Shown here: piece by piece, positions 8,766-46,447 of the stretch
How positions within the stretch are numbered: the first letter of the stretch is position 1
How the letters are laid out: each line of letters begins with the position of its first letter
Assembly (NCBI GenBank): GCA_030142905.1
Contig: JASJOG010000639.1
Span: forward strand, 1-64,000
Length of the DNA stretch: 64,000 bases
Direction of reading: 5' to 3'
From: Heliopora coerulea
Taxonomy: Eukaryota > Cnidaria > Anthozoa > Scleralcyonacea > Helioporidae
Translations under genes and position numbers: made by a program
Notes under the pieces: model-generated
Seen by the model: the letters and a program-made list of their open reading frames with translations, nothing else
Databases searched by the model: none
What the model was told of the DNA's origin: nothing

Positions 8766-11700
8766 CTACTTGTATTTACAGATACGTTTTCTGTAACACA
8801 CTCGGCGGCAAAGTCTGTACGATTTTTTGTGGCATACACGAGGTCCCCAAACAAGTCGGCAGCCACATTTGTAGCACCACATATCACGGCGTACACGATA
8901 GGATATGCACTTCCCATGAAAGTATCCTGCAAATATAACGAAAAATTGATACATTTCCGAATTTTCTTGGAGAACGTTGGTCCTGTGATGATATTTCCAA
9001 ACTTAGTGATAATCACGTAATCTCTACAGGGTTCTTCGCGCAAAGTTGCAAAATGAAATAAAGGAGAAATGAAATAGAACAGAGAACGCAGTTACACCAA
9101 TGTACTTGCTCTCAAGTTTCTAAACCCAATGTTAGGTTACAAGAGGCAATTGGAAGTAAGGGGACAAACTTTCAACATTACTTTTGGATACGGGAAGGAC
9201 ACATTTAAGTAAAATATAAACATATCTTAATTATAAGATATTCATTTGCGGAAACAAAAGTATTTTCACCTATAAAAAGGGACACAAGTGGAAACATGTG
9301 CCTTTAATACTTGCCGGTACTTAGACTGTGCATACACCTTCTCAGCCCTTGAAGTCTGTAGAACGCGTGATCGTGCAACGGCTGGTAAAATTCTGTAAGC
9401 ATTAATCTCCATCAATTAACTTACGAGTGGTGAGGTGGTCACGAGGAAAAAACAGAAGTAGTCGGTAATGTTTGCGAGGTATGAACTAGCAATCCGCAAG
9501 TCTCGATAGGCTACTTACAAGATTGTAGAGAGCGTGTTTAGGATGAGAGGAGGGGGAATGGAAGTTCAATACGTTCGAACACTGACACTTCTTGATTCAC
9601 TTCTTGGTGTTTCGATATCTGATGAAACACTCATTGCCGTATACGACACACAACATTCCATGAAATTAAAAGTGTCGCTGGCCCTTTTCTCTTTGTCAAA
9701 AACTGTAAGTAAACTTAAACAGCAAAAAAGGTAACGACTAAATTCTAAAACATACAAAATTAACGTACGCTTCTTTTCGTCATTGTCTGGAACGTCTTTG
9801 CTTCCATCTGTAAATAGCAGGTAAACTTTATTACTTCATTTATCTTTAAACAAAATCCTAATTATTGATTACATCTAAAGCAAAGATTGAATGAAAAATT
9901 AACGTATCAAAATTTTAAAATCAATAACGTTGCAGAAATTAGAGAAAAAAATTCGAACTTGCCGTCATCCTCGGATTCTATTCCATCTCTGGCTTCTTGG
10001 TTATTATTTTCTTCGCTCTTCTCCTCCATATTGTCTATATCGTTCGAAGTTATCTCCTTATAGGATTCTTTGGCTGTTTCTTCGTCAGGATTGATAACTT
10101 CAGGCCGGTTGTCATTTTGATGACCATCAATCTGCTCGTTGTTCTCCTGGAGCACTTCTCTTACACCTAGCGATATTAATATAGGAAGAAAATGCATTAT
10201 AAAATTACTGTTGAGTTTTCGTAATGCAACTTGGTAAATCAGTTTTTTTCACTTCTAGTTAAATTGACGCAAATGTAAAAGAGATTCCATATTTGGATAC
10301 TGGGTTTTTAATTTATAAAGTAGATGAAACAGTAACAGCAATAACCTGAAATACGTGCTGAAGAAGAGAATAAGAAACAAAAGTATTGCTAAAAGTTTTC
10401 CCTCCCGAATCCTGACTTTTCCAACTCGAGTGGTATCCTAATCAATATTTCCACGCGTAAGTAACTTCATGTTTTTCGATAACCTAGAACGCTTTTCTCC
10501 TTAACTGTTGACGGAGATTTTATCATTGAATTTCAAACATGCTTGCAAAAATTTTATAACATTTTCATACCTACAGCTAGTACTACAAAGGCTAAAACCC
10601 GCTTGAATGACCAAGTCAGGGCTATATTCACCGAATATTTGGCATTTACACTCGATCACATGAGATCGAGAACAAGTAGGATGAAAGAAATTTTTCGTGT
10701 ATCAGAATCTTATAATTCTATTTGTTCATGGCTGAGTCAAGGAAAATTACGCAGCTTTCGTTGAATCATTTGATCTTGCTGTGTTTTGGCATCATAACAA
10801 CACGACAGCCAATCTTACCTCTGTCGCTCTCCATCTCTTCATCATCAGTTTCTTCGTCGTTTTCTGCTTCATGGTTATCGTCGACGTTATTCTCTTCTAC
10901 TGAACTGTACTCATCGCTTCCAGCTATCTCTTCATAGTCGCCGGCTTCATTTGGTATGTCTTCGTCAGTCTGTTCTTTCTCATATTGATGTACACGAACA
11001 TCAGCTCGTTTCTTCTCTATCTCTGCTCTCACAGCTAGGAACATTCAAATAGCAAGAAAATTTCATTATTTAATGCTTCATCGGTTTTCATTTTATTATT
11101 TCAATGGACAGCACCTATAAAGATAGTAACTTGTAAAATTAACTCTAATCCTTTGCGCGCAATAAACGTTGTATCTTGCTGAAATACAGCAAGATAGGAG
11201 TTCAGACACTTCCCTTCTTTTCTGAAGAAAGCCCTTTAAAGTTTTAAAATACTGGTGCTCCTATTAAAGCTATGTGAAGTGTTGTCGTTAAACGAACAAC
11301 TGATTACTTGAGCTACGTTTCAGCAATTCTACGGTACCAGGTTAATGGAATAACATGAGTGCAACTAAGCGGGTGGAGAATAAATCTGCAATTCATAACA
11401 AAAGTCGTAAAGTGAATTGGAGCGGAATTTCAAGGCGTAGTTTAACATCGTTATAGTGTTATTTTTATGATTTTCAGCTCGGTCGAAAACCTAAATATTC
11501 AAGCTCAGTTAAGATAAATTTTCAAGGCTCTATTTTTTCTTTCCGCACCACATTCCAGCCTGGTAGTCCACTGGGTTGACGTTTTAACGCTGCTGAAATT
11601 CTCCCTCTAATTTTATCAAGTCGCGAGTTTCTATTCATTATTAAGTTTTTAGACTAAAACATGTTTAGTTCACCCAAGGTTTTGTATGTGGTAGCATATT

Positions 11701-11798
11701 TTTCACGTAAAATATAAATCTACCTTTTATGTTAAAAACTTACCTAAAATGCATGTGGAAGCCAAGAGTAAGGAGCAAATTATTGCAAAGCTTTTCAT
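8766..11798 (-). CDS. Secreted acidic-pro / cationic Cys-rich peptide precursor, gene 1m
   Basis: Five exons on the minus strand, all with consistent phase 1: 11744-11798 (signal peptide, starts MKSFAIICSLLLASTCIL), 10819-11034, 9963-10166 (two Glu/Asp-rich propeptide exons), 9769-9807 (short exon that ends in Lys-Lys and completes an Arg across the splice), and 8766-8926 (cysteine-rich). Lengths sum to 675 nt, 224 residues plus stop. Cleavage after the Lys-Arg pair would free a 52-residue peptide with 8 Cys, about 20 Lys/Arg and one Asp. Compared with its paralogues, the last exon ends early: a Trp codon has become TAG (8766-8768), and the coding-like sequence continues beyond it. It is the only one of the four genes open from ATG to stop. 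The architecture resembles cnidarian antimicrobial precursors such as damicornin or periculin; peptide toxin or signalling roles are not excluded. The family is not assigned. Confidence 0.72.
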
Positions 11799-12248
11799 TG
11801 TCGTCTCAGGTGCTCTTCAATCAGGACTTCCTAGATGACCAAATGATAGCCAAGTGAAGAATTTCGAGCTTATTTATATTATTTTTTTGGACTCTAATTT
11901 AAATGTAAATTACCCTGAACGCATGTCAGTCATTGAGACTTGGCTTTCATTAGCGACGTAAGCCTATGCATAATGACTTACGCAAGCACAGAAAGTACTT
12001 CATGGTCAGCTGAACTCTTTCTACATCCCTACTACCAAGGGATTAACCGACCACGAAGTGGATACTGCGCTTGCGTATGTCACAAAGCATAATGCTACTT
12101 AAAACCAGGCATTAATGACTAACATCCCTTCAGGGTAATTTACATTTAAATTAGAGTCCAGAAAATTCTATATAACAACCCGAATTTCTTCATTTGGCGA
12201 TCATTTGGTTATCGAGCAAGTCCTCACTGAAAACAAGCAGAGAAGACG
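11799..12248. promoter_or_regulatory. Shared bidirectional promoter of gene pair 1
   Basis: The 450 bp between the two start codons is palindromic. A stretch of about 30 bp including tttacatttaaattagagtc occurs near 12130-12158 and inverted near 11890-11920. TATATAA at 12169-12175 lies 74 bp before the plus ATG; TATAAATA on the minus strand at 11871-11878 lies 73 bp before the minus ATG. The centre holds ttgcgtaa-like sequences on opposite strands, which could be bZIP-type sites; that is a guess from the sequence. Symmetry suggests co-regulation of the pair. Confidence 0.7.
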
Positions 12249-15200
12249 ATGAACATCTTTGCAATACTTTGCTCCTTATTCTTGGTTTCAACATGCATTT
12301 TAGGTGAGTTCTTTTCATAAAAGGCTGATCTCCGGTTTACATTTAAAATACTGCGTGCAATGGACTTTAGTTGATTTTAAATATAGAAGAATTTTTTTGC
12401 TCTTTATATGTCACTAGCTGTGAGAGAGAACGAACAGGTTAATGTTCTTGACCATCAGTCTGAGGAGAAGGAACGGATTTTCAACAAACCAGAGGCTGAT
12501 GTCTACTCCGACAAAGACATAACAAATGAAGCCGGTGACAATGAGAAGATAAATGCAAGCGATAACGACAGTACAGTGAAAGAGACTAACGTCGAAGATA
12601 ACAAGGAAGCAGAAAACGACGAAGAAACCAATGATGAAGAAGAGATGGAGAACGAAGGTAAGATTGGTAGTCTTATTATATCTCCCAACATGTCCTCGTA
12701 TCGAAAGGTGATCATACTTGGTTGTCTTATTTAAAGGTAAAGTGCAACCATTTTTCAACAACTTCGATTTGAGGCTTAAGTTGCAGAAGATACCGTAAAG
12801 TTCCTGCAATAAGCTCGGTACTTATCGGCTCAAAAGACATTTTTTTCCCTACATTATTTTCGAGCATGGTTATTTTTAAGGAGTATAATTGTTGGAGGGA
12901 ATTTTGCGTTCGAAAAATCAGTTCGACTTATTTCTATAAAGGACTAACAAAGATATAATCGAGTGTAATAAACCGCAAAACTTTGTGAACACTGATCGCC
13001 ACAAGAACAGCATTAGAAACATAGGTTAATCGCCTTAACTCGTGAATATTTATTAGCTAAGTAGATTATTATCTCACTCCCGAAATTCTTAAGTAAATTG
13101 TAAGGTTACGGTAGCAGCGCTGAACTGTTGAGCAGGAAAAACATTTGAAATTTTTAACATTGTTTTATTGACTGGATTCCCAAACACAATAAGAACAAAT
13201 GCTGCACGAAAGTCGACGTACCGACGTAACTTGCCCATGCATGCATGACAATTGTCGAAAAATTTCCCGTCATCGAGTGTAAATGCCAATTATTCCTCGA
13301 ATGTAGCCATGACCCGGCTCAACCACAACGATTATGCAACGTAGCACTACCTATAGATATAACTATGGTACGATAAAATTTTTGCACCTGTGTTTGAAAT
13401 GCAAGGACAATATCCGCGAGCATAGTAGATGAGAAAAATTTACTGGGTTATCTAAAAATATGAAGTTACTTATGCGTGAAAGTGTTGATAACGAGATCAC
13501 ATTATTTGGAAAAGCTGGCAGTCGGCTAGGATGACCTTCAGCAGTACTTTGTTCCTAATTCTTGTCTTTGGCATCTACTTTAGGGTATTTACTACTACTA
13601 CAATGATTTCATCTATTTTGCATATTAAAAAAAAGTATATAAAGTATATAATCTCTTCGCATTTGTGTGAACTTAACGAAAAGTGAAAAAACAAACCGAC
13701 TTACCAAATTGCGTTAGAAAACTGAAAAACAACTTAATGAGCGATTTCTTGCTATTTTAATGTCGCTAGGTATAGGAGGAGTGCTGCAGGAGAATTATGA
13801 GCAGATTGATGCTCATGAAAATCGCAACCGCACTGAAGTCATGAAGGATGACGAAGGAACATCCGAAGAATCCGATCACGAGATAACTACTAACAACATA
13901 GACAATTTAGAAAAGAAGAGCGACGAAGAAAATAACGACAAAGAAACGGAGATGAAATAAAAACTGACGATGACGACGGCAAGTTCCAAGTTGGTTTTTT
14001 TTTTCTTCTTTTACTTCTACAACGTTAATGATGTTGGAAAACTTCAGTACGTTTACGATCTTATTCTATCTTTGCTTCAAATGTGATCAATATTTCGGAT
14101 TTTACTCCAAAAAAATGAAGTAATAATATTTATCTGCAGTTACAGATGAAACCGAAGAGACTCAAGCCGATGACGAAGAGAAGCGTAAGTTGTTTTAGTA
14201 TGCTTTAGAAAGTACTTGTAAACTACGCAGCTTAAGTTCATTTACAAATATTTACAAAAACAGGGCAAGCGATCCTTTCAAATTTAAATTGAATATCATA
14301 TCTATTTATTTGCATGAATAATTTCTATTAGCATATTACAAATATGCTAATAGGAATACCATATTAAAAGTCTCGAAAAAAAAAAAATTAAAAATAATTG
14401 CTTGCTGGTTATTACCAAAGGACGTTTGACCACACTTTCAAAAGTTTGTTGGTAATTCATATTTTATTGGCAAAATTGAGAACGATCTTCAATATTTGGC
14501 ATGTGTTCTGAAATAACACAAAATTGAGTATTTTACAATAGGCATGATGCATTAGTCAATACTACTCTTCAGCTTTGTTTCTTAAATCACGTCCTCGTGA
14601 GCTTAAAAATTGTCTTGATTATTCTATAGACGATAAATACTTATACGTGGCTCTTCGCAGTTTCTTAAAAACTGTTAAAATCCGGGTGATAAAGGTTATT
14701 CGTAAAATTCACCTATTCGGAAATCATGAATCGGATATGTTTCATAACATTTCCTGACAGTTCACGAAAATAACACCCAAATGAAGCATATCTCAATAGA
14801 CGTCTAAAATGTTATAACCTACCTTGCCGTACATAACTTGAATGCACGTTTACTTGTCAGGAAGTATACTTCCTAAGTAGCCAAATGGTTTAAAAGTGTC
14901 GAGAAACGTACAGATAAAACTTTATTCCCAATCAAAGTGAATTTATACTGAGCGTGTGAAAAAGTTTCCACTACATTATGCTTACATTACATTGTCATTA
15001 ATGGAGTTTTGAAATGTTACCCCGAAGATAACTCTGAAATTCAATCGAAACACTACACACCGTAATTCACAAGTGCTAGGTTGTCGCGAGTTTCTCCCGT
15101 GCACGTGCTGCAGTTAAAACGAGAGCACACTGTTCCCAGCTGACACCAGAGCTCCACTGGTTCAATACAAGTCTGCAAACCCGAAGATATGAGTTTGCAC

Positions 15201-16029
15201 CTCGTCCAAGTCAAATAAATTTTTTGAGATGACATCCGCAGTTCAGCATAATCATAACCACCTGCTTTTAGCTTGATGATGATTCCGAAATGGGCCACAT
15301 TTCTTAAAAGAAGTCGATATATCTAATATCTACCACGTAGTCATTGAGAATCATTTCATGAAGTAACATTCCATTCAAATACCTTGACATTAATCTCGAG
15401 ACCCACAGTCAATGAAATGGCCGTTCACAATTTTAAAAATTTACATTTTTCCTGGCAATCGTTCCCCCGTGTGCCGACCAGAATGTTTAATTTATTCCAC
15501 ATATATTCCCCGTCGAGTTAATCCCTCGGGACCGAGTTTATAAGCATAGATAGGAATTTGTGGCCGGCGGTAAGACTTCCGAGAAAGTCTAAGTATTACG
15601 ACGTTTAGGGTTTACAGTCACCCTCCCCTCATTCCAAACATGTTCTCTACGCCTCCGTATGTAACCTATTGAGACTTGCCCACTTGTAGTTAAAGTTTGT
15701 GCCCCTTTAACCTTGTCTTTTGCAACCTTCCTATGACAGTGAATCGAGAAACTTGAAAGCATCGAACATCCATATAAATAAGTTCTCTGTTCTGTTTTAT
15801 TCTTCTCTCGTTTCATTTTGCAACTTGACGTAAAGAACCCTGTTGACGTAATGTAATTGTGCCTAAATTGGGAAATATTCTTACAGGACTAACGGTTTCC
15901 ATCCTTAAAAAAAATTCAATAATCTACTAAATTTTCGTTATATCTACAGGACACTTTCATGGAAGGTGTATATCCTATCGTGTACGACGTGGTATGTGGT
16001 GCTATAAATGTGGCTGCCGACTTGTTTGA
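12249..16029 (+). pseudogene. Cationic Cys-rich peptide precursor, gene 1p, disabled
   Basis: Exons 12249-12303 (signal peptide, MNIFAILCSLFLVSTCIL), 12418-12657 and 13770-13978 (acidic propeptide), 14146-14184 (ends in Lys, completing Lys-Arg) and from 15950 (cysteine-rich). Compared with gene 2p, exon 3 has lost one base near 13945, so the frame closes at TAA 13958-13960 and the exon is 209 nt rather than a multiple of three. The mature exon has three in-frame stops: TGA 16027, TAG 16057 and TGA 16123, at codons that are Trp, Tyr and Cys in gene 2p. Exons 1, 2 and 4 are intact. A transcript could still give a secreted acidic peptide, but not the full cysteine-rich product. Confidence 0.8.
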
Positions 16030-16260
16030 GGACCTCGTGTATGCCGCAAGAAATCCTAGAGAATTTGCCGCCGAGTGTGTTACAGAAAACGTATCTGTAA
16101 ATACAAGTGGTTCCGACGACGTTGATTCAAAATACGAACCTGTCCCGTGAAATGTAAAAAACTATATGGATGCAAACCAACATGTGGAATTAGGTGCTAT
16201 GGGCGTACATTCGTAAGTTTTCTTTAAACACTACGGATTTTACCAGTCAGATAATTAGTA
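15950..16260 (+). pseudogene. Degraded mature exon of gene 1p
   Basis: The acceptor tatctacag ends at 15949. Homology to the intact exon at 46170-46447 is near complete to about 16220, including a good donor-like gtaagt at 16213 after the last Tyr-Gly-Arg block. The cysteine-rich frame has three stops, while the frame one base later stays open from 15959 to 16150. See the finding on the overlapping frame. Confidence 0.75.
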
Positions 16261-16599
16261 ATTTAGCAGATGTAAAAACTTGTGAGTTATATCTTCATTT
16301 CTGGTGAAGATGTGGGCGAGAGGTCTTACCGGTAATACACGCATGTCAAAACCTTTCGTAAGGACGCTTTGACTCCTGAATCCATCCCCGACTTTTTACT
16401 CGACAAGGGAAGAACTCTTGGACAGGAAAGGTTTGATCAAATAATGGCGTTTGGATAACATAGGGTGGGTCAACATATCTGACTTATCTAACTTAATAGT
16501 ATCCCAAAACTGCAAACCAATTATTTCTAGTTCATATTGAAGTTTTGTTTTTCCTATCTGTTTAGCTCTGTTCCAATTTTTTTTAACAGTGTTGAATTC

Positions 16600-17250
16600 C
16601 AATTGCTTACGTTCGCTTCAAGTATTCGTCAAAACTCCAGAAATATTGCTTTTCATGTTTTGTAACATGCAATATTTACCAGCTTTCGTAACACGGATTA
16701 TATTTGTACAACTATCGAATAATACCGCATCTCTTATGTGAAATTTCTATTTGATTAGATTTGTTCGATAGATTCACCGGTTGATTAATTCGACTGATTC
16801 ATTGATTGATGCATTAACCCAGTGAAGGCTTGATTGTGAGAGAATGATTGAATAATTAAAAGCTTGACTCACTAATCCCTGATAGGTTTAGTTCACAGTA
16901 GGATTGCTTGATTGGTAGTGCTTTTCGATATAACAAACCCATTTCAAGTCAAATGCATTCAAATCGAGAGTCGGGTATAAAGGACTGAAAAATACAAGGT
17001 TTACAAAACAGCCCATTCATTATATTTTCTCTTACAGTGCCATAGACGTCATGGATAAAATAGACTGACACTTATGAGCAGAAAGGATTATCTACCATTT
17101 GGACCTGCGACTTGTTTTCATTGCAGTATCTTAGTAAAGCTAGATTACTAGAACTTGGTTTGTTTTCATTGAGAGATGTGCTGCAACACGTGTTAGCTTT
17201 AAAACTTTACAAAAACAATTAAACAATTTATCTAACGGTGTTGGTTGTCC
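16600..17250 (+). repeat. Unit tail after gene 1p with GATT-type tract
   Basis: The tail holds gattgattgatg-like repeats (about 16795-16920) and the block beginning cagtgccatagacgtc near 17036. It corresponds to 46800-47440 and, inverted, to 7500-8700. A similar block is at 28540-28740. No gene is seen. Confidence 0.65.
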
Positions 17251-19320
17251 TTTATGAGAACAACAAGAAAAGGATACCGTTAAAATTTAAGGGGAAAAGA
17301 TTGGAGATGGGCGACTAGATCTACATAAGAAACTACGATTAAGACTTCTTAACGAGCGAACTCCATAATGAAAAAGTATTTCCCGGAGGTTTTCGTATAG
17401 GCCACGTGAAACTGTACGTTTTTCTTTCCAATTAGGTTCTGGGTTAATAACGTTCCCACCCAAGCTAATAAACGTCAGATAAATATTTCTATTCCGTGAT
17501 GCTATCCAGTTTTGCTTGAACGGAATAATTTTCTTGCAGTGAATTTGTTTGCCGTTCATTAAATTCGATAACCCTTACTGAATGTTGTACAATCATTTTG
17601 AATTAAATTACTCTAATGTTTGGGGATGTCCGTTTTACTATTACCGTAACTAAAGGCTTGACAAACTTCTTTTTTTTTCTTTTTTTTTTTTTTTTTGGGT
17701 GGCAGTGGGGTATGAGAAGAACCTGTGTTTGGATATTAAATGGCAAAGTGGCAAAAAGCTCATCCATGACAATATTAATATTATATACGAGATCACTTCA
17801 GTCGGTATTGTAAACATTTGGCAGAGAAAACTATGACATGTTGACCGGGATGGTAGTATAAAAGTATTACTTGGGTTTGTTGAGCATCCTAAATTGGTTA
17901 CGAAAAGAGGCTACCTTCCATAGTTGTCTTTGATTTACAGAGCTCCTTTTCCTCGTTATGCAGCGCAAGGAAATTAGATCTAAAAGTTCAACCTCCACGA
18001 TTCTACGCAGCATTTTTTAGTCAGGCAAAAAATGCGAAAAAGGAGAAACGGAGTGACAGGATTTCAAATGATGGGAAATAGAAAAGAGTTCCAACCACTG
18101 TTAACAATTGCCTACTATGTAGAAAATCCTACATTGAACTCAGTTAATGCTGAAAAATCAAGAACGCACTCTCATTCAATTTAAAATATATTTAGTGCCA
18201 AAGTAGTGCGTAGGTTTCAGATTTACTTTTAGGGTAACGATTTGTGTTAAACTATGAAAATATCGTCGAGTTATTTCGGTATTTTTGCCCTACGAGATCC
18301 AAATTCAATCACAAACGTCCCAGCGGCAGTCAATATGAGATGAGATTGCTCGTTTATCCAAAAAAATAAACGTAAACGATACTGTCGTGCATTCAATTAT
18401 TGAAAAGGAAATCGCTTCACTCGATAAGCTCCAAAGTCGGCAGTGAAAGCCTTCCTTTGTCGGTACTTGAGAGAGAGAGGGAAGTATTTTTTCGGTCCGT
18501 AATGCATGCTTAGTTGGTCGCGCAAAGCAGCTTAACGTATAAGTTACAGCGGTCAAAGCAATGGAAGTGGAATTGTTTGAGTTTCGTGGGAGCGAGGTCC
18601 AAATGCTCAAGAACTGATAGAGCACTCTGATATCATAACAGCAGGAAATTCTAAACGCATGCTGTTGCTTCAACGCTTATTGAATTTTCAATTTTGCTTC
18701 CTGCAAACACAACGTTATCTTTTTTGTTTTTTACGCGCGCGAAACAGCGACAAAAAGTTACGGCACTTCATTTTCGTTTAAAAGTTGAATATATTTCAGG
18801 CTTACACTGGCGCTGCCGCTGGTCAAAATCGCTCAATTCGTAATGGAATACTTTAAAAGGCTTACGGTGAGAACAATAGAGGCCTTGTTTTCTGCTGCTG
18901 CGGACAGTGACATTCTTACCATTCCTGAGAGATGTGCCCCAAATGTATAGGTTTTGAGGGGGCAAATGCCCCCGTTCCCGCGAAACTTAGGCCAAAGGCT
19001 GCGCTATTCGCCCTCTTAGGTCTTGGAATGCCATTATACGTGATAGCTTCTGTAACTGGCGGAAGTATTATTTACACGGATTTCTTTGATACATTTTGAT
19101 ACAATCATGCAATTATTTAAACGAACTGCAATATAGCAATCTGTTTTAAAAAAAAATATCCAAGTACTGTAGAAAGACATGTGGCTTAAAAGCTGATACT
19201 TCCTTTAATTTCATCAACATCAAGTTCACTAAAATATTACGTGCTCTTACATAAGTTTTATAACTTTTATACTCCAGTAAAAAATCAAGAAATCTGCTAA
19301 ATATTTTCATTATATTTACA
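17250..19320. other. Unit body without intact gene
   Basis: This stretch matches 47450-49610. It holds a long T tract (near 17670-17697), the recurrent block 17940-18540 and short open frames that are not conserved in frame. It lies upstream of the relic cysteine-rich exon at 19322 and probably represents lost upstream exons and introns of that unit. I see no signal-peptide exon here. Confidence 0.5.
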
Positions 19321-19321
19321 G

Positions 19322-19570
19322 GATCCCAGTACAACAGGTTCTTATCCTATCATTCACGACTTAGCTTGTTCTGTCGTACGTGCGACTGCCACCCTGTTTC
19401 GGGAACCCGTAAATGCTCAACCCACAATGTCTGCCGTTGTAAAACGTCGCTGTCGTAAGGGGATGCTCATGAGACGTTGCCACCTTGTACCAATCTGTCA
19501 CAATAAATGTTATACAAAATTTGGGTGCAAGACCAACCCAATGGAATAAAGTGCTTTGGGCGTCCAATTG
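19322..19570 (+). pseudogene. Relic cysteine-rich exon (unit 3, copy 1)
   Basis: The acceptor tatatttacag ends at 19321, as in the mature exons. The following bases align with the family exon: the first part gives Phe-Cys-Arg-Thr-Cys-Asp-Cys, matching Trp-Cys-Tyr-Lys-Cys-Gly-Cys of gene 2p. A frame shift follows near 19440, and in the shifted frame a KRRCRKGMLMRRC stretch and further Cys residues align with the C-terminal half. A second shift precedes the final tgctttgggcg block. No upstream exons were found. It is a decayed, isolated exon. Confidence 0.7.
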
Positions 19571-19639
19571 TAAAGGTCATGATTATACCATTCAGATCGT
19601 TTATTAGTCATTATTTAGTCAACCTAACACTTATAAATT
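19565..19639 (+). repeat. 75-bp source copy of a local duplication
   Basis: This 75-bp sequence just 3' of the relic exon is repeated without a mismatch at 20288-20362, at the 5' end of the PLE insertion. Confidence 0.93.
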
Positions 19640-20094: not shown

Positions 20095-20290
20095 TAGATT
20101 GATTATTGCTGATTCAATAACTGATCAACTGATAAATTGATTGGTTGTTTGGTTGATTGTTTGATTGATTAATTGATTGATCGATCGATGGTGAAATGGA
20201 TTGATGAATGGAAAGTTTGGCTGCTTTGTTGTGCCTTTCGACCTAATCAAATCACATGAAATCAAAACAAATCACATGAAATCAAAACAA
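20095..20290. repeat. GATT-type tract and short tandem duplication at PLE target
   Basis: gattgattgatt-like repeats are followed by two tandem copies of a 20-bp sequence (atcacatgaaatcaaaacaa, ending at 20270 and 20290). Copy 2 (near 50545-50565) has one copy. The last 12 bases are the target-site duplication of the PLE. Confidence 0.75.
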
Positions 20291-20362
20291 TTGTAAAGGT
20301 CATGATTATACCATTCAGATCGTTTATTAGTCATTATTTAGTCAACCTAACACTTATAAATT

Positions 20363-21246
20363 TTTTTCTCAGCTATTTGAATAGTCAACATCCTAACATC
20401 AATTTCACGCATGAAACTGAAGTCAACAACTGTTTACCCTTCCTTGACGTTCTTATAACACGATCCAATGGCTCTTTCTCTACTTCAGTTTTTCATAAAC
20501 CCACTTTCACTGGCTTATACACCAACTACAATAGTTTTATTCCGTCTGTTTACAAAACAGGATTAATATCTTCCCTTCTTAATCGCTATTTTAGTATTTG
20601 CTCCTCCTATTTTATTTTTGACTCGCATCTTCAAAATCTTAAGAAAACTCTTTCACTCAATGGTTATCCCATTTCATTCATAGACACATGCATTCGCCGG
20701 TTTCTTGATAAGATTTTCTCACCCTCCCTCAAAGTTTCCCTCGCCCCCAAGAAAATCGTTTACTTTTGCCTTCCCTACACTGGTCAACATAGCCTCCAAA
20801 TTCGCACTCAGATTCGGAAGTTATGCTCCAGTGCTTTCCCTCACATTAACCTTCGCTTTGTTTTCCGCCCCTCCCTCCGATTGTCTCACTTTTTTGTCTT
20901 TAAAGACAGGATTCCCAAGACTTTGAGATCTCGTGTCGTTTACCGCTTTAAGTGTCAACGTTGTAGTTCGTTGTATGTCGGCCAGACGAGTCGGCTTCTC
21001 CACACACGAATCTCAGAGCACTTGGGTATTTCTGCCTTTACTGGCAAAAAACGAGTCAATCCTCCTCCGACTAGCATCCTGTCACATCATTGTGACACTG
21101 GACATCCTGTCTCGCCTAATGACTTTACTATCTTGTCCTCTTCTTCTTTCAACTCTGAACTTCTCGTCAGAGAAAGTCTGCTTATCCGCAAACTCAATCC
21201 ATCACTTAATGCCAACATGGGCTCTTCTCCACTCTTTTTATTTTAA
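20363..21246 (+). pseudogene. PLE reverse transcriptase C-terminus plus GIY-YIG endonuclease, truncated
   Basis: The open frame extends from 20302, but its first 20 residues come from the duplicated local DNA. The recognisable part starts with a Leu-Asn-Ser-Gln-His-Pro block and LPFLDVLI, typical of the segment after the PLE polymerase active site. It continues through a basic linker to a C-terminal domain with VYRFKCQRCSSLYVGQTSR, then Arg and Glu-His positions, and a GHP motif: a GIY-YIG nuclease of the PLE type in which the Ile-Tyr half reads Leu-Tyr-Val-Gly. The frame is uninterrupted to TAA at 21244, which suggests a young insertion. The polymerase fingers and palm, with the YxDD box, are absent. 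Confidence 0.87.
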
Positions 21247-21385
21247 GACCTTTCGTTTCTCGACCTTTCCATTACATCTCAGTCTGCTGTTTCCTTGTGC
21301 CCTCCCCACTTCCGCTCCTACGCAAATATCTCGTTTACTTATCATGTAATATATCATCACCTTGTAATATAGTTTTTCATTCATT

Positions 21386-23349: not shown

Positions 23350-23580
23350 CTTTTATTAAAGTAAATGGTTTGAACCTGGGAGAATCGCGACATGTTTGAG
23401 GAAGTTGATCGTCCAGGTTAGTGTAGTCTTGAGAAAGACTGTTGGATGAAGTGACTGACGTTTTGACAGCCTTAGCGGTGGTCATCTTCAGAGTCAAAAG
23501 GAGAGTAAATGTCAGGTTCGCCTGTATTTGTATCTGGCTCGTGCGTGATAAGTGGGCGGTCGTATTAGTCATGGAGGTGT
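23350..23580 (-). mobile_element. PLE 3' tail, minus strand
   Basis: On the minus strand it reads actctgaagatgaccaccgc ... ctgtcaaaacgtcagtcac, the 3' tail of a PLE with a hammerhead-like CTGAAGA core (the GAAAC box is mutated to AAAAC). It interrupts module A sequence that is continuous at 52600-52640 and 30830. The same PLE family forms the inverted insertion at 37762-38009. Confidence 0.7.
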
Positions 23581-27163: not shown

Positions 27164-27393
27164 GATTCATCAGGAGGTGCTGTCGATTTGTTACTACTCG
27201 TAAATGCCGCTACTACAAACTTTGCCGACGAGTGTGTCATAGAAAACATCGCTGTTATCGTCACTTGGTCGGGCTACGATGCAGATATTACACAGTCTGC
27301 CCCACGAAATGTTATAGACGATACCACAGCAGGCCATTCCGTTCACTTAAGTGCTATCGACATCGATTTGTTTTTTTTCTCTCAATATCATAG
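27164..27393 (+). CDS. Diverged cysteine-rich exon, open frame, upstream exons not found
   Basis: The acceptor gttacgtttacag ends at 27163. In the same phase as the other mature exons the frame is open for 75 codons to TAG at 27391. It contains 10 Cys, many Arg and Lys, and no Asp or Glu. YKLCRRVCHRKHRCYRH aligns with YRICRRVCYRKRICKYK of gene 2p and a VCPTKC motif aligns with TCPVKC. Divergence from gene 2p is large, yet the frame and Cys pattern are kept, which argues that this frame is the coding one. I could not find a signal exon or acidic exons between 25.7 and 27.1 kb, so it may be an orphan exon or a pseudogene. Confidence 0.6.
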
Positions 27394-35330: not shown

Positions 35331-35683
35331 GTCACCACTGAGGATAGGTAACCGTGTGGAGACTGGAACTCGAAAATTAAGTATTTTATTCTCCTGATAT
35401 CTGTTTGGAAAATAAACCTTTGAAGGTAAGGTTATAATGTCGCCAGGGCTAATATGTCAACCGTTAGGATTAGGGTTAGGGTTAGGGTTAGTAATAAGAC
35501 CCTAGCCCAAATGTTAACCCTAATCCTAATCCTAACCCTAACCAAAACAATCAGGATAATTCCGAATTTTAGGACCATTAATATTTCAGGATAATCCTAA
35601 ATTTTAGGTAAGAGGATATCAGATAAGTAAAATACTTAATTTCTGGTTCCTGTCTCCACACGGTTACCTCCTTTCAGAGGTTA
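35331..35683. mobile_element. Foldback element with TTAGGG repeats, copy 2
   Basis: The terminal inverted repeats start at aggtaaccgtgtggagac (near 35347) and end with the reverse complement near 35668. The centre (35463-35545) has four successive ttagg(g/a)-type units, then taaccctaatcctaatcctaac-type units in the opposite direction. Telomere repeats carried inside a mobile foldback element explain them better than a chromosome-end fusion. Confidence 0.78.
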
Positions 35684-37748: not shown

Positions 37749-37761
37749 ATGAAAGCTAGCT
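37749..37761 (+). repeat. Left target-site duplication (13 bp)
   Basis: atgaaagctagct here and at 38010-38022 flanks the inverted PLE insertion. Copy 1 has one copy near 8263-8275. Confidence 0.92.
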
Positions 37762-38009
37762 AAAATAAATGGTTTGAACCTGGGAGAATCTTGACATGTT
37801 TGAGAAAGTTGATCGTCCAGGTTAGTGTAGTCTTGAGAAAGACTGTTGGTTGAAGTGGCTGACGTTTCGACAGCTTTAGCGACTGTCATCTTCAGAGTCA
37901 AAAAAAGGACTCTGAAGATGACCGCCACTAAGGCTGTCGAAACGTCAGTCACTTCAACCAACAGTCTTTCTCAAGACTACACTAACCTGGACGATCAACT
38001 TCCTCAAAC
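37762..38009. mobile_element. Inverted PLE 3'-tail insertion, copy 2 only
   Basis: A minus-oriented tail (37762 to about 37898) and a plus-oriented tail (from about 37908) meet head to head around an A-rich spacer. The plus half holds CTGAAGA (37912-37918), a hairpin with gac.gcc and ggc.gtc arms, and GAAAC (37940-37944). The insertion interrupts the 3' flank of gene 2m and has a clean 13-bp target duplication, so it arose after the large duplication. Confidence 0.85.
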
Positions 38010-38356
38010 ATGAAAGCTAGCTGTTGTATTAAAATGTTATGCCGATTCCTATTACAAAAATCGTGAATTGGTTTCAAAAAACTCCTGAAAAATGTAATTG
38101 AAACGAAGCTAGACAGACTTAAAAAACGAACCTTTAAGAAATATGAAGTAGGGTCCATTACTGTGTAGTTTTGGGGACGAACAGGTAATTATTTTTGTTT
38201 ATGTTTAATCGACCCTGTGACATCCATAATCCAGCATTGGCTCAAATCGTCCTTACTCACGGTTTGGTACGTATATTCTCGCTAAGACCCCCATCCCTAT
38301 ACGTCAGCACAACTGAACATCCAATTCACATGAGCATTATCTCTGCTTAATAATCG

Positions 38357-38670
38357 CTAGTTAATGATCTGATTGGTAAAGATCTGTCGTATTGAAAGAA
38401 CACTTCCGAATGTACGCCCATAGCACCTAATTACACAGGTTGGTTTGCATCCGTATAGTTTTTTACGTTTCACTGCACAGGTTCGTATTTTGAAGCAACG
38501 TCGTCGGAACCACTTGTATTTACAGATACGTTTTCTGTAACACACTCGGCGGCAAAGTCTGTACGATTTTTTGTGGCATACACGAGGTCCCCAAACAAGT
38601 CGGCAGCCACATTTGTAGCACCACATATCACGGCGTACACGATAGGATATGCACTTTCCATGAAAGTATC
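38357..38670 (-). CDS. Open mature cysteine-rich exon of gene 2m
   Basis: The acceptor atatttacag is followed by the cysteine-rich frame: 13 Cys, about 30 Lys/Arg and one Asp before a divergent C-terminal tail (SVLSIRQIFTNQIIN). In gene 1m the same exon stops at Trp to TAG. The Cys to Arg change (TCAVKRKK compared with TCPVKCKK) leaves an odd number of Cys. Confidence 0.75.
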
Positions 38671-41583
38671 CTGTAAATATAACGAAAAATTGATACATTT
38701 CCGAATTTTCTTGGAGAACGTTGGTCCTCTGATGATATTTCCAAACTTAGTGATAATCACGTAATCTCTACAGGGTTCTTCGTGCAAAGTTGCAAAATGA
38801 AATAAAGGAGAAATGAAATAGAACAGAGAACGCAGTTACACCAATATACTTGCTCTCAAGTTTCTAAACCCAATGTTAGGTTACAAGAGGCAATTGGAAG
38901 TAAGGGGACAAACTTTCAACATTACTTTTGGATACGGGAACGGCAAATTTAAGCAAGTAAAATTTAGACATATCTTTATTGTAAGATATCCATTTGCCGA
39001 AACAAAAGGATTTTCACCTATAAAAAGGGACACAAGTACAAACATCAGCCTTTAATACCTGCCGGTACTTATACTGTGCTCACACTTTCTCAGCCTTTGA
39101 AGTCTGTGGAACTCGTGATCGTACAACGGCTGATAAAATTCTGTAAGCATTAATCTCCATCAATTAACTTACGAGTGGTGAGGTGGTCACGAGAAAAACA
39201 GAAGTAGTCGGTAATGCGTGCGAGGTATGAACTAGCAGTCGGCAAGTCTCGATAGGCTTCTAAAAAGATTGTAGACAGCGTGTTTAGGATGACAGGAGGG
39301 GGAATGGAAGTTCAATACGTTCGAACACTTACACTTCGCAACTCACTTCTTGGTGTTTCAATATCTGATGAAATACCCCTTGTCGTATACGATACAAGAC
39401 ATTCAATGAATTTAAGAGTCGCTGGCCCTTTTCTTTTTGTCAAAAATTGTAAGTAAACTTAAACGGCAGAAAGCTAACGACTAAATTCTAAGACATTAGA
39501 AATTAACTTACGCTTGTTTTTGTCATTGTCTTGAACGTCTTTGCTTCCATCTGCAAATAGCAGGTAAACTTTATTACTTCATTTATCTTTAAACAAAATC
39601 CTAATTATTGATTACATCCAAAGTAAAGATTGAATGAGAAATAAACGTATCAAAATTTTAAAATCAATAACGTTGCAGAAATTAGAGAAAAAAACTCAAA
39701 CTTGCCGTCATCCTCGGATTCTATTCCATCTCTGGCTTCTTGGTCGTTATTTTCTTCGCTCTTCTCTTCCATATTGTCTATATCGTTCGAAGTCATCTCC
39801 TTATAGGATTCTTTGGCTGTTTCTTCGTCAGGATTGATAACTTCAGGCCGGTTGTCATTTTGATGACCATCAATCTGCTCGTTATCCTCCTGGGGCACTT
39901 CTCTTACACCTAGCGCTATTAATATAGGAAGAAAATGCATTATAAAATTACTGTTGAGTTTTTGCAATGGAACTTGGTAAGTCTGTTTTTTTTTCACTTC
40001 TCGTTAAATTGACGCAAATGTAAAAGAGATTCCATGTTTGGATGCTGGGTTTTTAATTTATAAAGTAGATGAAGCAGTAACAGCAATAACCTGAAATACG
40101 TGCTGAAGACGAGAATAAAGAACAAAAGTATTGCTAAAAGTTTTCCCTCCCGAATCCTGACTTTTCAACCCAAGTGGTATCCTAATCAATATTTCCACGC
40201 GTAAGTAAATTAATGTTTCTGGATAACCTAGAACGCGTTTCTCCTTAACTGTTGCCGGAGATTTTATCATTGAATTTCAAACATACGTGCAAAAATTTTA
40301 TAACATTTTCATAACCTACAGCTAGTACTACAAAGGGTAAAACACGCTTGAATAACCAAGTCACAGCTATATTCACCGAATATTTGGCATTTACACTCGA
40401 TCAGATCAGATGGAGAACAAGTAGGATGAAAGAAATTTTTCGTGTGTCAGAAACTTACAATTCAATCTGATCATGGCGGAGTCAAGGAAAATTACGCAGC
40501 TTTCGTGCACAATCTGATCTTGCTGTGTTTTGGCATCATAATAATACGACAGCCAATCTTACCTTTGTTGCTCTCCATCTCTTCTTCATCATCCATTACT
40601 TCGTCGTTTTATGATTCATTTTTATCGTGGACGTTATTCTCTTCTACTGAACTGTCCTCATCGCTTCCAGCTATCTCTTCATAGTCGCCGGCTTCATTTG
40701 GTATGTCTTCGTCAGCCTGTTCCTTCTTATATTGATGTTCACGAACATCAGCTCGTTTCCTCTCTATCTCTGCTCTCACAGCTAGGAACATTCAAATAGC
40801 AAGAAAATTTCATTATTTAATGGTTCATCTGTTTTCATTTTATTATTTCAATGGACAGCGCCTATAAAGATAGCAACTTGTAAAATTAACTCTAATCCTT
40901 TGCGCGCAGTAAACGTTGTATCTTGCTGAAATACAGTAAGATAGGACTTCAAACACTTCCCTTCTTGTCTGAAGAAAGCTCTTACTTGATCTACATATAA
41001 GTTTTAAAATACTGCAACTCCTATTAAAGCTATGTGAAGTGTAGAAAATGTTGTCGTCAAATGAACAACTGATTACTTGAGTTACGTTTCAGCAATTCTA
41101 CGGTACCAGGTTAATGGAATAACATGAGTGCAACTAAGCGTGTGGAAAATAAATCTGCAATTCATAACAAAAGTCGTAAAGTGAACTGGAGAGGAATTTC
41201 CGTGCCTACTTTGACATGGTTATTGTGATATTTTTTGGATTTTCAGCTCCATCAAAAAACTTAAATATTTCAGCCCGGTTAGGTCAGACCGGGTTGATAA
41301 ATTTTCAAAGCTCTATTTTTTTGTTTCCGCGCCACATTCCAGCCAGGTGGTCAACCGGGTTAACGTTTTAACGCTCCTGAAATTGTTCATGTAATTTTAT
41401 CGTGTCCCGAGGTTCTATTCATTACTTAGTTTTTAGGCTAAAACATACTTAGTTTATCCAAGGTTTTCTGCGTGGTAGCATATTTTTAACGTAAAACATA
41501 AAATCAAGCTTTTATCATAACAACTCACCTAAAATTCATGTGGAAGCCAAGAGTAAGGAGCAAATTATTCAAAAGCTTTTCAT
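38357..41583 (-). pseudogene. Cationic Cys-rich peptide precursor, gene 2m, disabled upstream
   Basis: Exons on the minus strand: 41529-41583 (signal), 40563-40781 and 39706-39909 (acidic), 39512-39550 (ends Asn-Lys, completing Lys-Arg) and 38357-38670 (cysteine-rich). The signal exon has TGA at codon 5 (41569-41571), where gene 1m has Ala. Exon 2 has TAA at 40609-40611. The mature exon is fully open for about 103 residues with 13 Cys: the eleventh Cys of gene 2p is Arg here, and the frame runs past the usual end because the donor-like gtaagt became ggaagt. The intact mature exon behind two upstream stops suggests either recent loss or use of another start; loss is likelier. Confidence 0.78.
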
Positions 41584-41927
41584 TGTCTTCTCTTGTGCTC
41601 TTCTAGCAGGACTTGCTAGATCGCTTAGTCAACAAATTCGATCTATTTTATACATTATTTATTTGACTTTAATTTAAATGCAAATTACCATGAAGGCATG
41701 TCAGTCATTGAGACTTGGTTTTAATTAGCGACGTAAGTGCCTACTGCGCTTGCGTATGTCACGAATCATAATGCTAGTTATAAACAGGAATTAATGACTA
41801 AAATCCCTTCAGGGTAATTTACATTTAAATTAGAGTCAACAAAATTCTATATAACAACCCGAATTTCCTCATTTGGCGATCATCTGGTTATCGAGCAAGT
41901 CCGCACTGAAAACAAGCAGAGAAGACG
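41584..41927. promoter_or_regulatory. Shared bidirectional promoter of gene pair 2
   Basis: This is a shorter version of 11799-12248. The inverted arms containing aatttaaatg(c/t)aaattacc are kept, TATATAA (41848-41854) lies 74 bp before the plus ATG, and a TATAAAATA-like sequence on the minus strand near 41644-41652 faces gene 2m. About 90 bp present in the centre of pair 1 are missing, including one of the two ttgcgta-type sites. Confidence 0.65.
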
Positions 41928-44900
41928 ATGAACATCTTTGCAATACTTTGCTCCTTATTCTTGGTATCGACATGCATTTTAGGTGAGTTCTTACCATAAA
42001 AGGCTGATCTACGGTTTACATTTAAAATACTGCGTGCAATGGACTGTAGTTGATTTTAAATATAGAAGAATTTTCTTGCCCTTTATGTCACTAGCTGTGA
42101 GAGAGAACGAACAGGTTAATATTCTTGACCATCAGTCTGAGGAGAAGGAACAGATTTTCAACAAACCAGAGGGTGTTGTCTACTCCGACGAAGGCATACC
42201 AAATGAAGCCGGTGACTATGAGAAGATAGCTGCAAGCGATGACGATAGTACAATGAATAAGAGTAACGCCGAAGGTAACAAGGAAGCAGAAAACGACGAA
42301 GAAACCAATGATGAAGAAGAGATGGAGAACGAAGGTAAGATTTACTGTTTTATTATATCCCCCAAGCGTGTACTCTTATCGAAAGGTGTTCATACATGGT
42401 CGTCTTATTTAAAGGTAAAATGCAACCATTTTTCAACAACTTCGATTTGAGGCTTACGTTGCAGAAGATACTGTCAAGTTCCTGCAATAAGCTCGTAACT
42501 TATCAGCTCAAAAGACATTTTTCCTAACATTTTTTCGAGCATGGTTGTTTTTAAGGAGTATAATTGTTGGAGAGAATTTAGCGTTCGAAAAATCTGTTCG
42601 ACTTATATTTTTAAAGGACCAACAAAGATATAATCGAATGTAATAAACCGCCAAACTTTACGAACACTGATCGCCACTAGAACAGCATTAGAAACATAAG
42701 TCCATCCCCTTAACTCGGGGGTTATTTTCAGCTCGGTGATTATCTCACACCTGAAATTCTCAAGTAAATTGTAAGGATACGGTAGCAGCGCTGAACTATT
42801 GAGTAGGATAAACATTTCAAATTTCCTACATTGTTTTACTGACTGGATGCCCAAACACAATAAGAACAAACTGCTGCACGAAAGTCGACGTACCTTTAAC
42901 TCGGCCATGCTTGCATGCGAAGGTTGCATTGTAAGATTCAAAATACTCGAAAAATTTCCCGTCATCGAGTGTAAATGCCAAACATTCCTTGAATGTAGGC
43001 ATGACTCGGCTCAACCGCAACGATTATGCAACGTAGTATTACCTGTAGATATAACTATGTTACGATAAAATCCGTGGGTATAGTTGATGAGAGAAACTTA
43101 CTGGGTTATCTAAAAATATGAAGTTACTTATGCGTGAAAGTGTTGATAAGGAGATCACATTATTTGGAAAAGCTGGCAGTCGGCTAGGATGACCTTCAGC
43201 AATACTTTGTTCCTAATTCTTGTCTTCGGCATGTACTTTAGGGTATTTACTGCTGTAATGATTTCATCTATTTTGTAAATTAAAAACTCAACGGCTAAGT
43301 ATAGAATCTCTTCACATTTGTGTTAAGTTAACGAAAAGTGAAAAAACAAACTGACTTACCAAATTGCGTTACGAAAACTGAAAAACAAGTTAATGAGTGA
43401 TTTCTTGCTATTTTAATGTCGCTAGGTATAAGAGGAATGCTGCAGGAGAATTATGAGCAGATTGATGCTCATGAAAATCACAACCGCCCTGAAGTCATGA
43501 AGGATGACCAATAAACATCCAAAGAATCCGATCAGGAGATAACTACGAACAACATAGACAATTTAGAAGAAAAGAACGACCAAGAAACCGGAGATGAAAT
43601 AAAAACCGACGATGACAACGGCAAGTTCAAATTTTTTTTTTCTTCTTTTACTTCTACAACGTTATTGATGTTGAAAAATTTCAATACGTTTACGTCTTAT
43701 TCTATCTCTGCTTCAAATGTGATCAATATTTCGGATTTTACTCCAAGAAAAATTAAGTAATAATATTTAACTGCTGTTACAGATGAAACCGAAGAGGTTC
43801 AAGCCGATGACGAAGAGAAGCGTAAGTTGAGTTAGTATGCTTTAGAAAGTACTTGCAAGCTACGCAGCTTAAGTTCATTGACAAATTCTTACAAAAAAAA
43901 AAAAGACGAGCGATCCTTTCAAATTTAATTTGAATATCATATCTATGTATTTGCATGAATAATTTCTATTAATATATTACAAATATGTTAATAGGAATAC
44001 CATATTCAAGGTCTCAAAAAAAGAAATTTAAAAAGTTGCTTGCTGGTTATTACCAAAGTACGTTTGACAATACTTTCTTCCACAAGTTTGTTGGTAATAC
44101 ATATTTTATTAGCAAAATTGAGAACGATCTTCAATATTTGGCATGTGTTCTGAAATAACACAAAATTGAGTATTTTATTTTAGTAGAAACTTAGTCGAGT
44201 ACTATTCCAAATGTTGCATTCTGATTGGCTACGCTACTCGCTATCTATTCGTCGGTAGATAGCGAGTAGCGAAAATGGCTTCCTTCTCTCGTTTTTGTGA
44301 AATTTCTGAAGACGAAATAGAATGCTTACTTGAAAGTGCAATCCTAGAAAAATGTTCTTTACAAAGTGCTCTCAATTTCTATCAGGTGATAGTTGACTCG
44401 GGCTTCACCCTCGTCAACTATCACCTCATAGAAATCTCCACCTCATAATCTAATTATTGAATAGGCATGATGCATTAGTCAATAGTACTCTTCAGTTTTG
44501 ATCCTTAAACCACGTCCTCATGAGCTTAAGAATTGTCTTGATTATTCTATAGACGATAAATATTTATACGTGGCTCCACGCAGTTCATTCAAAACTGTTA
44601 AAATCTGGGTGATAAAGGTTATTCGTAAAATTCACCTATTTGAAAATCATGAATCGGATATGTTTCATAACATTCCCTGACAGTTCACGAAAATAACACC
44701 CTAGTGAAGCATATCTCCTTAATAGACGTCTAAATTGTCATAACCTACCTTGCCGTACATAACTTAAATGCATGTTTACTTGTCAAGAAGTATACTTCCT
44801 AAGTAGCCAAATGGTTTAAAAGTGTCGAGAAACGTACCGATAAAACTTTATTCCCAATCAAAGTGAATTTATACTGAGTGTGTGAAAAATAGTTTCCACT

Positions 44901-46447
44901 GCATTATGCTTACATTACATTGTGATTAATGGTGTTCGGGCATGTTATCCTGAAGATGACTCTGAAATTGAATCCAAACAATGCACACCGTAATTCACAA
45001 GTGCTAGGTTGTCGCGAGAATCTCCCGTGCACGTGCTGCAGTTGAAACGAGGGTACACTGTTCCCAGCTGAAACCAAAGCTCCACTGGTTGAATACCAGT
45101 CTGTAAACACGAAGATATTAGTTCCCACCTCGTCCAAGTCAAATAACTTTTTCGAGATAACATCCGCAGTTCAGCATAATCATAACCACCTGATGTTAGC
45201 TTGATGATTCCGAAATGGGCCACATATCTGCGAAGAAGTCGATATATTTAACATCTATCACGTAGTCATTGAGAATCATTTCATGAAGTAATATTCAATT
45301 CAAATACCTTGACATTAATCTCGAGACTCACAGTCAATGAAATGGCCGTTCACAATTTTAAAAATTTACATTTTTCCTGGCAATCGTTCCCCCTTGTGCC
45401 GACCAGAGTGCTTAATTTGTTCCACAATTATTCACAGTCGAGTTAATCCCTCGGGACCGAGTTTATAAGCGTAGATGGAAATTTGTGGCCGGCGGTAATA
45501 CTTCCGGGAAAGTATAAGTATTACGACGTTTAGGGTTTACACTTCCCCTCTTCTCATTCGAAACATTTTCTCCAAGGACCCATACGTAACCTATTGAGAC
45601 TTGCCGACTTCTAGTTCATACCTCACACGAATTGCCTACTACGCCTTCTACCCTCTCCATTACTGAGTTCATGGAGATTAATGGTTAGAGTGTTTCACCA
45701 GCCGTCGAACGATCACTACTTCTACTGACTTCAAGGGCTGAGAAAATCTGAGCACAGTTTCAAGTGCTGGCACACATTAGAAGCATGTGTTTGCACTTTT
45801 CAAGTGTCCTTATTATGGCGGAAAATCCACGTTTATTACCGAAAACACGTATCTCGAGCAAAAATTTAAATTTTTGCCATTCGAGAGTGCCTTTCCGTTA
45901 TCGAAAAGAATTCATGAAAGTTTGTGCCCCTTTAACCTTGTCTTTTGCAACCTTCCTATGACAGTGAGTCGAGAAACTTGAAAGCATCGAACATCCATAT
46001 AACTAAGTTCTCTGTTCTGTTTCATTCTTCTTTCGTTCCGTTTTGCAACTTGACGTAAAGAACCCTGTTGGCGTAATGTAATTGTGCCTAAATTGGGAAA
46101 TATTCTTACGGAACTAACGGTTTCTATCCTAAAATTAAGTAATCTACTAAATTTTCGTTATATCTACAGGACACTTTCATGGAAGGTGCATATCCTATCG
46201 TGTACGACGTGGTATGTGGTGCTATAAATGTGGCTGCCGACTTGTTTGGAGACCTCGTGTATGCCGCAAGAAATCCTACAGAATTTGCCGCCGAGTGTGT
46301 TACAGAAAACGTATCTGTAAATACAAGTGGTTCCGACGACGTTGCTTCAAAATACGAACCTGTCCCGTGAAATGTAAAAAACTATATGGATGCAAACCAA
46401 CCTGTGGAATAAGGTGCTATGGGCGTACATTCGTAAGTTTTCTTTAA
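41928..46447 (+). CDS. Secreted acidic-pro / cationic Cys-rich peptide precursor, gene 2p
   Basis: Exons 41928-41982 (signal, MNIFAILCSLFLVSTCIL), 42095-42334 (80 codons, about one third Asp/Glu), 43426-43620 (acidic), 43783-43821 (ends Glu-Glu-Lys and completes Lys-Arg) and 46170-46447 (cysteine-rich, stop TAA). The mature part would be 91 residues with 14 Cys, about 30 Arg/Lys and no Asp or Glu. Exon 3 has one in-frame stop, TAA 43512-43514, at a Gly codon of gene 1p. All internal exons are phase 1 on both sides, so skipping exon 3 would restore an open 203-residue precursor. Without skipping it is a pseudogene. The acidic propeptide probably neutralises the basic peptide until cleavage, as in other antimicrobial precursors; function is inferred from architecture only. 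Confidence 0.65.
44178..44461 (+). mobile_element. MITE-like insertion with Crypton-like start codon region, copy 2 only
   Basis: This stretch lies in intron 4 of gene 2p and is absent from copy 1 (near 14535). It holds two strong hairpins: gctactcgctatcta (44233-44247) with its inverse at 44256-44270, and aggtgatagttgac (44384-44397) with its inverse at 44413-44426. An ATG at 44275 opens 57 codons starting MASFSRFCEISEDEIECLLE, which resembles the N-terminus of Crypton-type recombinase genes. No clear terminal repeats were found. Confidence 0.65.
45617..45917. repeat. Segment kept in gene 2p, deleted from gene 1p
   Basis: Copy 1 jumps from about 15690 straight to the sequence that follows 45917. 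The segment matches the inverted sequence at about 9320-9490 in gene 1m, so it is ancestral intron 4 sequence and the loss is in gene 1p. Confidence 0.7.
46170..46447 (+). CDS. Intact 14-Cys mature exon of gene 2p
   Basis: This is the best-preserved mature exon. It begins after tatctacag, starts with the second and third bases of the Arg codon of the Lys-Arg site, and includes blocks such as MWCYKCGCRLVW, YRICRRVCYRKRICKYKW and GCKPTCGIRCYGRTF. A GTAAGT at 46433-46438, in the last codons, looks like a splice donor, so a further exon is possible; if unspliced the protein ends four residues later. Confidence 0.8.

Follow-up and report, generated by a model that had tools for sequence, protein, structure and literature searches.

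What kind of peptide do the repeated small exons on contig JASJOG010000639.1 of the cnidarian Heliopora coerulea (GenBank assembly GCA_030142905.1) encode, and are they still genes? The stretch analysed, called the window here, is 64,000 nucleotides long and comprises positions 1 to 64,000 of the forward strand of this contig (C600:1-64000 in our numbering), within a genome of 429.8 Mb in 769 contigs. An earlier note on the window had described four copies of an arrangement of signal peptide, two acidic exons, a 39-nt exon completing a Lys-Arg site and an extremely basic, Cys-rich mature exon, and had proposed an antimicrobial or venom-like peptide stored in neutralised form. The anatomy of this secreted precursor with its modular acidic propeptide is supported, the genome beyond the window contributing more to this than the window itself, where all four copies are damaged. 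With moderate confidence we read the locus as part of a new, tandemly amplified family of secreted antimicrobial-type peptides that would be kept neutral until cleavage by a convertase.

Predicted precursor and its intact copies

Copy D, on the forward strand (41.93-46.45 kb), begins with a signal-peptide exon (MNIFAILCSLFLVSTCIL; 41928..41982) that ends in phase 1 at a GT donor, followed by acid exon 1 (42095..42334, open), acid exon 2 (43426..43620, with an in-frame TAA and a GC donor) and a 39-nt exon (43783..43821) ending in DDEEK(R). Its mature exon (46170..46447, stop included) encodes 91 amino acids with 14 Cys, 30 Lys/Arg and no Asp or Glu. The five exons, their phase-1 boundaries and their splice sites (AG acceptors and GT donors, except for the GC donor after acid exon 2) recur in the three other copies of the window, termed A, B and C, and the short exon completes a Lys-Arg site in every copy, reading DDEEKR in B and D, NDEKKR in A and NDKNKR in C. 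What did not hold up is the integrity of these genes: in the five-exon reading each copy is broken, and copy D is open only when acid exon 2 is skipped, which yields a predicted precursor of 203 amino acids. The basic, Cys-rich stretches are nevertheless not a product of chance, as three of them (60 amino acids, 8 or more Cys, 18 or more Lys/Arg and no Asp/Glu) are present in the window versus none in 40 first-order Markov windows.

The four window copies appear to be mostly pseudogenes, with intact copies on other contigs. The D mature exon as query found at least 27 places in the genome (expect (E) value up to 0.001), 23 of 27 without a stop, and the mature exon of a paralogue, G1, found at least 35 (E up to 0.01; 27 of 35 without a stop). 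Both queries combined give at least 36 distinct places, of which two are weak matches (E 0.007 and 0.009). They all lie on contigs C133, C325, C339 and C600, which may be one locus or partly haplotypes. Gene structure was analysed in C325:1-200000, in three stretches of C133 and in five more of C133, C325 and C339. A profile search of C325:1-200000 detected head-to-head pairs comprising six copies each of the D and A types. Ten of these twelve (D30, D56, D79, D113, D140, A63, A87, A120, A147 and A188) were found by script to be open through all five exons with sound splice sites, the remaining ones being D179 and the truncated A35. The intact copies have predicted propeptides with a net charge of -34 to -49 that end in Lys-Arg, and mature parts of +28 or +29 with 14 Cys (15 in D113). 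Counted to mature residue 91, the precursors measure 263-273 amino acids; the mature frame is longer in A-type and some D-type copies, reaching at most 103 residues in those translated. The described composition of the mature exon, 14 Cys and about 30 Lys/Arg in 91 residues, is correct for copy D, but the lack of acidic residues is not general: three of 14 intact A/D-type copies have one each, and the paralogue G2 has seven.

Some paralogues are built more simply. F1 and F2 (C325), G1, G2 and H1-H3 have a single signal exon and a single acid exon, while I1 (C339) has two acid exons and a signal exon that is cut by the edge of the stretch analysed. The structure of F1, F2, G1 and H1-H3 (signal, acid, 39-nt and mature exon, phase 1) was read by eye, as was the short exon of G2, which measures 33 nt instead of 39 nt; H3, which is close to H1, may be a haplotype or a recent copy. 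The gene's older form is probably the one seen in paralogues that have a single acid exon. In the five-exon form, acid exon 2 is similar to acid exon 1 (tblastn E 4.6e-6), and copy D contains a decayed second signal exon (43189..43244, +) homologous to the first (nhmmer E 2.7e-5, match 43184-43249), so that the signal and acid exons were most likely duplicated as a block.

Three further observations concern these copies. The GC donor after acid exon 2 (43621-43626 in D) occurs in four of four window copies and in six of six D-type copies on C325, with GT in five intact A-type copies. A GTAAGT close to the end of the mature exon is present in A, B and D and lost in C. Immediately beyond the window, an F-like mature-exon match without a stop lies at C600:66683-66901.

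Selection on the mature exon and the propeptide

The mature parts of D, A, I1 and G2 share the framework C10C2C1C8C(5 or 7)C3C5C8C5C3C5C3C3C, which G1 has with one-residue changes. H-type members lack exactly two of its Cys (C49 and C58) together with the loop between them, and this joint loss suggests that Cys49 and Cys58 form a disulfide. F-type members lack at least three framework Cys. Among open members, Cys numbers range from 11 to 15 in the 18 listed, with 10 in locus F of the window, a diverged mature exon (27164..27390, +; open, 24 Lys/Arg, no Asp/Glu). Locus F retains nine of the 11 aligned Cys of D, which was reached in none of 5000 neutral simulations, the frame staying open in 2.2% of them. 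G2, I1 and G1 each retain 14 Cys, whereas neutral drift from D56 to the same divergence leaves a mean of 4.6-5.5 of 14 (0 of 3000 simulations in each case), with the frame still open in 0.5-1.0% of runs. As Cys retention exceeds what the neutral simulations produce, selection for the Cys scaffold is clearly indicated.

The inverted copies of the window differ at 18-23 of the 272 mature-exon sites (6.6-8.5%) without gaps, versus 31-43% divergence in the flanks. The Nei-Gojobori method (NG86) gives for these pairs 0.04-0.05 non-synonymous (dN) and 0.13-0.22 synonymous (dS) changes per site in the Lys/Arg frame; in the other frames the two rates are about the same. For 17 chosen close copies (four from the window, 11 from C325 and two from C339; 14 without a stop up to codon 90) the Lys/Arg frame has a dN/dS of 0.34-0.38, versus 0.56-0.60 and 1.5-2.1 in the others. 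Across the 15 pairs of six distant members, dN is 0.33-0.69 and dS 0.39-1.13, dN being lower than dS in most pairs without D56.

The sequence of the acid exons is held loosely, with about 21-22% of sites differing between A and B and a dN/dS of about 0.6-0.8 between intact D and A types. Their acidity is another matter. Neutral drift of 21% from D56 leads to a propeptide net charge of -19.2 (standard deviation 5.4) and an open frame in 2.3% of runs; A120 carries -39 over the same exons, a value reached in none of 3000 neutral simulations under the assumed mutation model. Selection on propeptide acidity is clear from these simulations.

Propeptide charge also follows mature charge. For eight of the 18 listed members, chosen to represent each type once or twice, the two correlate with r = -0.88 (p = 0.004), or r = -0.79 (p = 0.036) without G2, p values that are optimistic because the paralogues are related genes; over 14 members r is -0.75. 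Because of stops or decay the counts leave aside L034, L031, the F-type exons at 7.1 and 44.1 kb of C325, E-type exons and the window copies; they also leave aside window locus F, for which no propeptide was found, and C339 places other than I1. A Lys-Arg end is present in 17 of the 18 members listed. The exception, G2, has all 14 Cys, a mature net charge of +6 including its acidic residues, and a propeptide of net -10.

Comparison with known families

No Pfam family, ShK included, scored above cut-off when the mature and acid pieces were scanned; SH3-B_UBE2O, a candidate for the A-type mature part, stayed under it (E 0.52). NCBIfam gave no match for the same pieces. The Protein Data Bank (PDB) contained no match to a single mature exon and nothing credible with profiles: ribosomal L40e (E 0.03) and a rhombotin fusion (E 2.7) appeared with a three-row profile and both vanished with a seven-row profile. 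A search of 5.8 billion proteins with the mature exon and with the mature part of the 203-residue predicted precursor revealed no credible relative. Viral and prokaryote genome contigs had no match, nor had Rfam at gathering threshold. An AlphaFold model on the three-row alignment reached a predicted local distance difference test score (pLDDT) of 54.6 and a predicted template modelling score (pTM) of 0.37 and was not used.

No family with this Cys framework was found in the open-access literature searched, and the claim that its spacing differs from known families was borne out against those compared here, as far as the excerpts of the sources describe them. Damicornin is a peptide of 40 residues bearing six Cys and an amidated C terminus, and its precursor follows the same plan of signal peptide, acidic proregion, dibasic cut and cationic Cys-rich C-terminal peptide (PMC4306955). 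AmAMP1 likewise has six Cys; a cited title describes its family as ShK-related. The mature parts described here differ from both in their 14 Cys and from damicornin in their approximately 91 residues. Periculin resembles the family in joining an anionic N-terminal to a cationic Cys-rich C-terminal region, but contains eight Cys as opposed to 10-15, a separation that relies on its published description (PMC11767717). Paralogue clusters and a narrow taxonomic range are common to both: in Hydra vulgaris AEP two clusters account for 23 of the 28 periculin paralogues, and periculins are described as confined to Hydra (PMC10945409). The SCRiPs of stony corals and anemones are also small Cys-rich precursors with convertase sites, yet their mature part of 40-48 residues has eight Cys with three adjacent ones near the C terminus, and CCC occurs in none of the 18 members listed here (PMC10892658). 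By its Cys framework the family belongs to neither damicornin nor periculin; its precursor plan matches both.

Organization of the window

The first 62 kb or so of the window are a tandem duplication with a unit of about 30 kb (1-30700 and 30725 to about 62000; 85-96% identity where aligned). Each unit contains two inverted, head-to-head gene copies, A(-)/B(+) in the first and C(-)/D(+) in the second, with signal exons 450 bp apart in the A/B pair and 344 bp apart in the C/D pair. Spacing and sequence suggest that the 344-bp interval from which the signal exons of C and D diverge (41584..41927, no strand) is likely a shared two-way promoter.

Copy A (8.65-11.80 kb, -) consists of a signal exon (11744..11798), acid exon 1 (10819..11034) and acid exon 2 (9963..10166), all open, a 39-nt exon ending in NDEKK(R) (9769..9807) and a mature exon (8652..8926) interrupted by a single in-frame TAG. 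In copy B (12.25-16.23 kb, +) the signal exon (12249..12303) and acid exon 1 (12418..12657) are open, acid exon 2 (13770..13978) is frameshifted, the 39-nt exon (14146..14184) ends in DDEEK(R) and the mature exon (15950..16224) has three in-frame stops. Copy C (38.40-41.58 kb, -) has stops inside its signal exon (41529..41583) and an in-frame stop in acid exon 1 (40563..40781); acid exon 2 (39706..39909) is open, the 39-nt exon (39512..39550) ends in NDKNK(R), and the mature exon (38396..38670) is open with 13 Cys, one having changed to Arg, in a frame extending to about 38360. Together with the stop in acid exon 2 of D, these disabling lesions differ from copy to copy, and both ancestral genes therefore look intact at the time of the 30-kb duplication. 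No signal or acid exon was found by nhmmer near locus F. Locus E (49576..49872, +) is a decayed mature-exon relic, and E0 (19280..19575, +) is a decayed tandem copy of it.

The window has other features besides. A 328-residue open frame at 20260-21243 (+) contains a GIY-YIG domain (PF01541, E 1.8e-5), presumably Penelope-like, in a stretch that the unit-to-unit alignments skip in the second unit. A reverse transcriptase frame lies at 59228-60274 (-; PF00078, E 1.9e-13) and has 6933 relatives among 7991 candidates; among the 120 relatives listed, the one that bears a species name comes from Acropora millepora (54%). A 105-nt inverted repeat (37795-37899 and 37908-38012, 94% complementary, with a gap of 8 nt) has a further copy at 23391-23495. 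In the genome, one GFP-family exon scored above cut-off; like the Acropora millepora relative, it points to an anthozoan.

Discussion

If the locus encodes antimicrobial-type precursors, the acid pieces would hold the very basic peptide neutral, folded and disulfide-bonded in the secretory pathway, until a convertase of the furin type cleaves behind Lys-Arg. Once released, the peptide would bind to and damage microbial envelopes, serving in epithelia or eggs as an antimicrobial comparable to damicornin and periculin. Five-exon members would have arisen by duplication of the signal and acid exon pair, with subsequent decay of the second signal exon. The proposal of storage in neutralised form passes two tests, the retained acidity and the charge tracking, and the interpretation as a whole is partly supported. 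A broader proposal, which we doubt slightly more than we believe, is that the family represents a new 14-Cys disulfide scaffold whose charge is set per member and whose shield consists of duplicable exon modules. Propeptide charge would be a selected titrant of mature charge, and the surface outside the Cys would diversify freely. From an older form with one signal and acid pair, the most basic members would have gained a second acid exon, and the one member whose mature part is not strongly basic would be without Lys-Arg and most of the shield.

Several points weigh against an antimicrobial family of this kind. All four window copies are broken, Cys numbers are odd or reduced in F-type members, and the charge correlation is based on few, related paralogues. 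In an event count across the four window copies, six of 13 fixed changes were synonymous versus 24% expected (p = 0.07), and terminal changes gave 5 of 14, four being stops. The amino-acid identity of D and F alone yields p = 0.06, and among distant paralogues third positions are no more variable than the rest (D and F 39, 44 and 44 of 67 by codon position). In comparisons of D56 with distant paralogues dN and dS are nearly the same (F1 0.50/0.50, G1 0.40/0.39, G2 0.51/0.45, I1 0.47/0.46), which leaves no sign of purifying selection outside the Cys at this depth and would fit diversifying selection or nucleotide constraint. The non-Cys residues of the mature part may thus evolve freely or diversify, with constraint at the nucleotide level as the rival. 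Synonymous divergence between D and A types is 0.116 in the mature exon and 0.40-0.47 in the acid exons, about four times less, so that gene conversion may add to the conservation of the mature exon. Finally, a peptide of 91 residues and 14 Cys is larger than most known cnidarian antimicrobials.

One alternative is a role in venom, in which a basic disulfide-rich peptide of stinging cells or mucus would act against prey or predators, with the acid part serving for storage. SCRiPs, which were found in an antimicrobial search, are now held to be neurotoxins according to the excerpted source (PMC10892658). Near-equal dN and dS outside the Cys of distant paralogues would be expected of toxins and antimicrobials alike. 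On the other side stand the lack of a Pfam match above cut-off and of anything credible in the PDB, as well as the mature exon being the best conserved part among close copies. A net charge of +28 and 14 Cys are moreover unusual for channel toxins, and we regard a venom component as unlikely.

Improbable too, in our view, is a structural role, with polycation and polyanion co-secreted for mucus, egg coat, capsule wall or mineral matrix and the acid piece as a product itself. Many Cys could crosslink, and the acidity of the acid exons is not just retained but outweighs the mature charge in five-exon members. However, an acid sequence as loose as the dN/dS between types implies, with its charge nevertheless kept, fits a counter-ion better than a scaffold, and the near-universal Lys-Arg end argues against the acid piece being the product.

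We judge it unlikely, indeed very much so, that the conserved exon is read in the +1 frame or that two of its frames code. That frame is open for the first 65 codons in D (46172-46370), and is open in A, B, C and F too; in G2 and I1 it stays open for 77 codons, and its residues in D, G2 and I1 can be recognised as similar (L030, L036). It has the lower dN/dS in five pairs of D56 with distant paralogues, and nucleotide conservation is high at all three codon positions. Yet permuted D codons give an equally long frame in about 10% of cases, the +1 frame stops early in G1, H1 and H2 and at codon 46 in F1, and its dN/dS is higher among close copies. The Lys/Arg frame has no stops in the nine members compared, a set chosen for being open there; it is also the frame into which the phase-1 ends of the upstream exons lead, and its Cys retention has no counterpart in the +1 frame. 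Hardly any probability, lastly, falls to the window as mere relics of a dead family without a functional gene, which the lesions in four of four copies and the decayed E-type exons might suggest, since those lesions are copy-specific with genes that look intact before the 30-kb duplication, ten of twelve C325 copies are intact and most genome matches are stop-free with either query.

If the antimicrobial reading is true, the genome of Heliopora coerulea would hold many strongly basic peptides locked by disulfides, an arsenal that our searches tie to no described family. The family contains its own controls, in the form of basic members with Lys-Arg and one near-neutral member without it. These built-in controls would make the old idea that acidic propeptides neutralise antimicrobial peptides directly testable.

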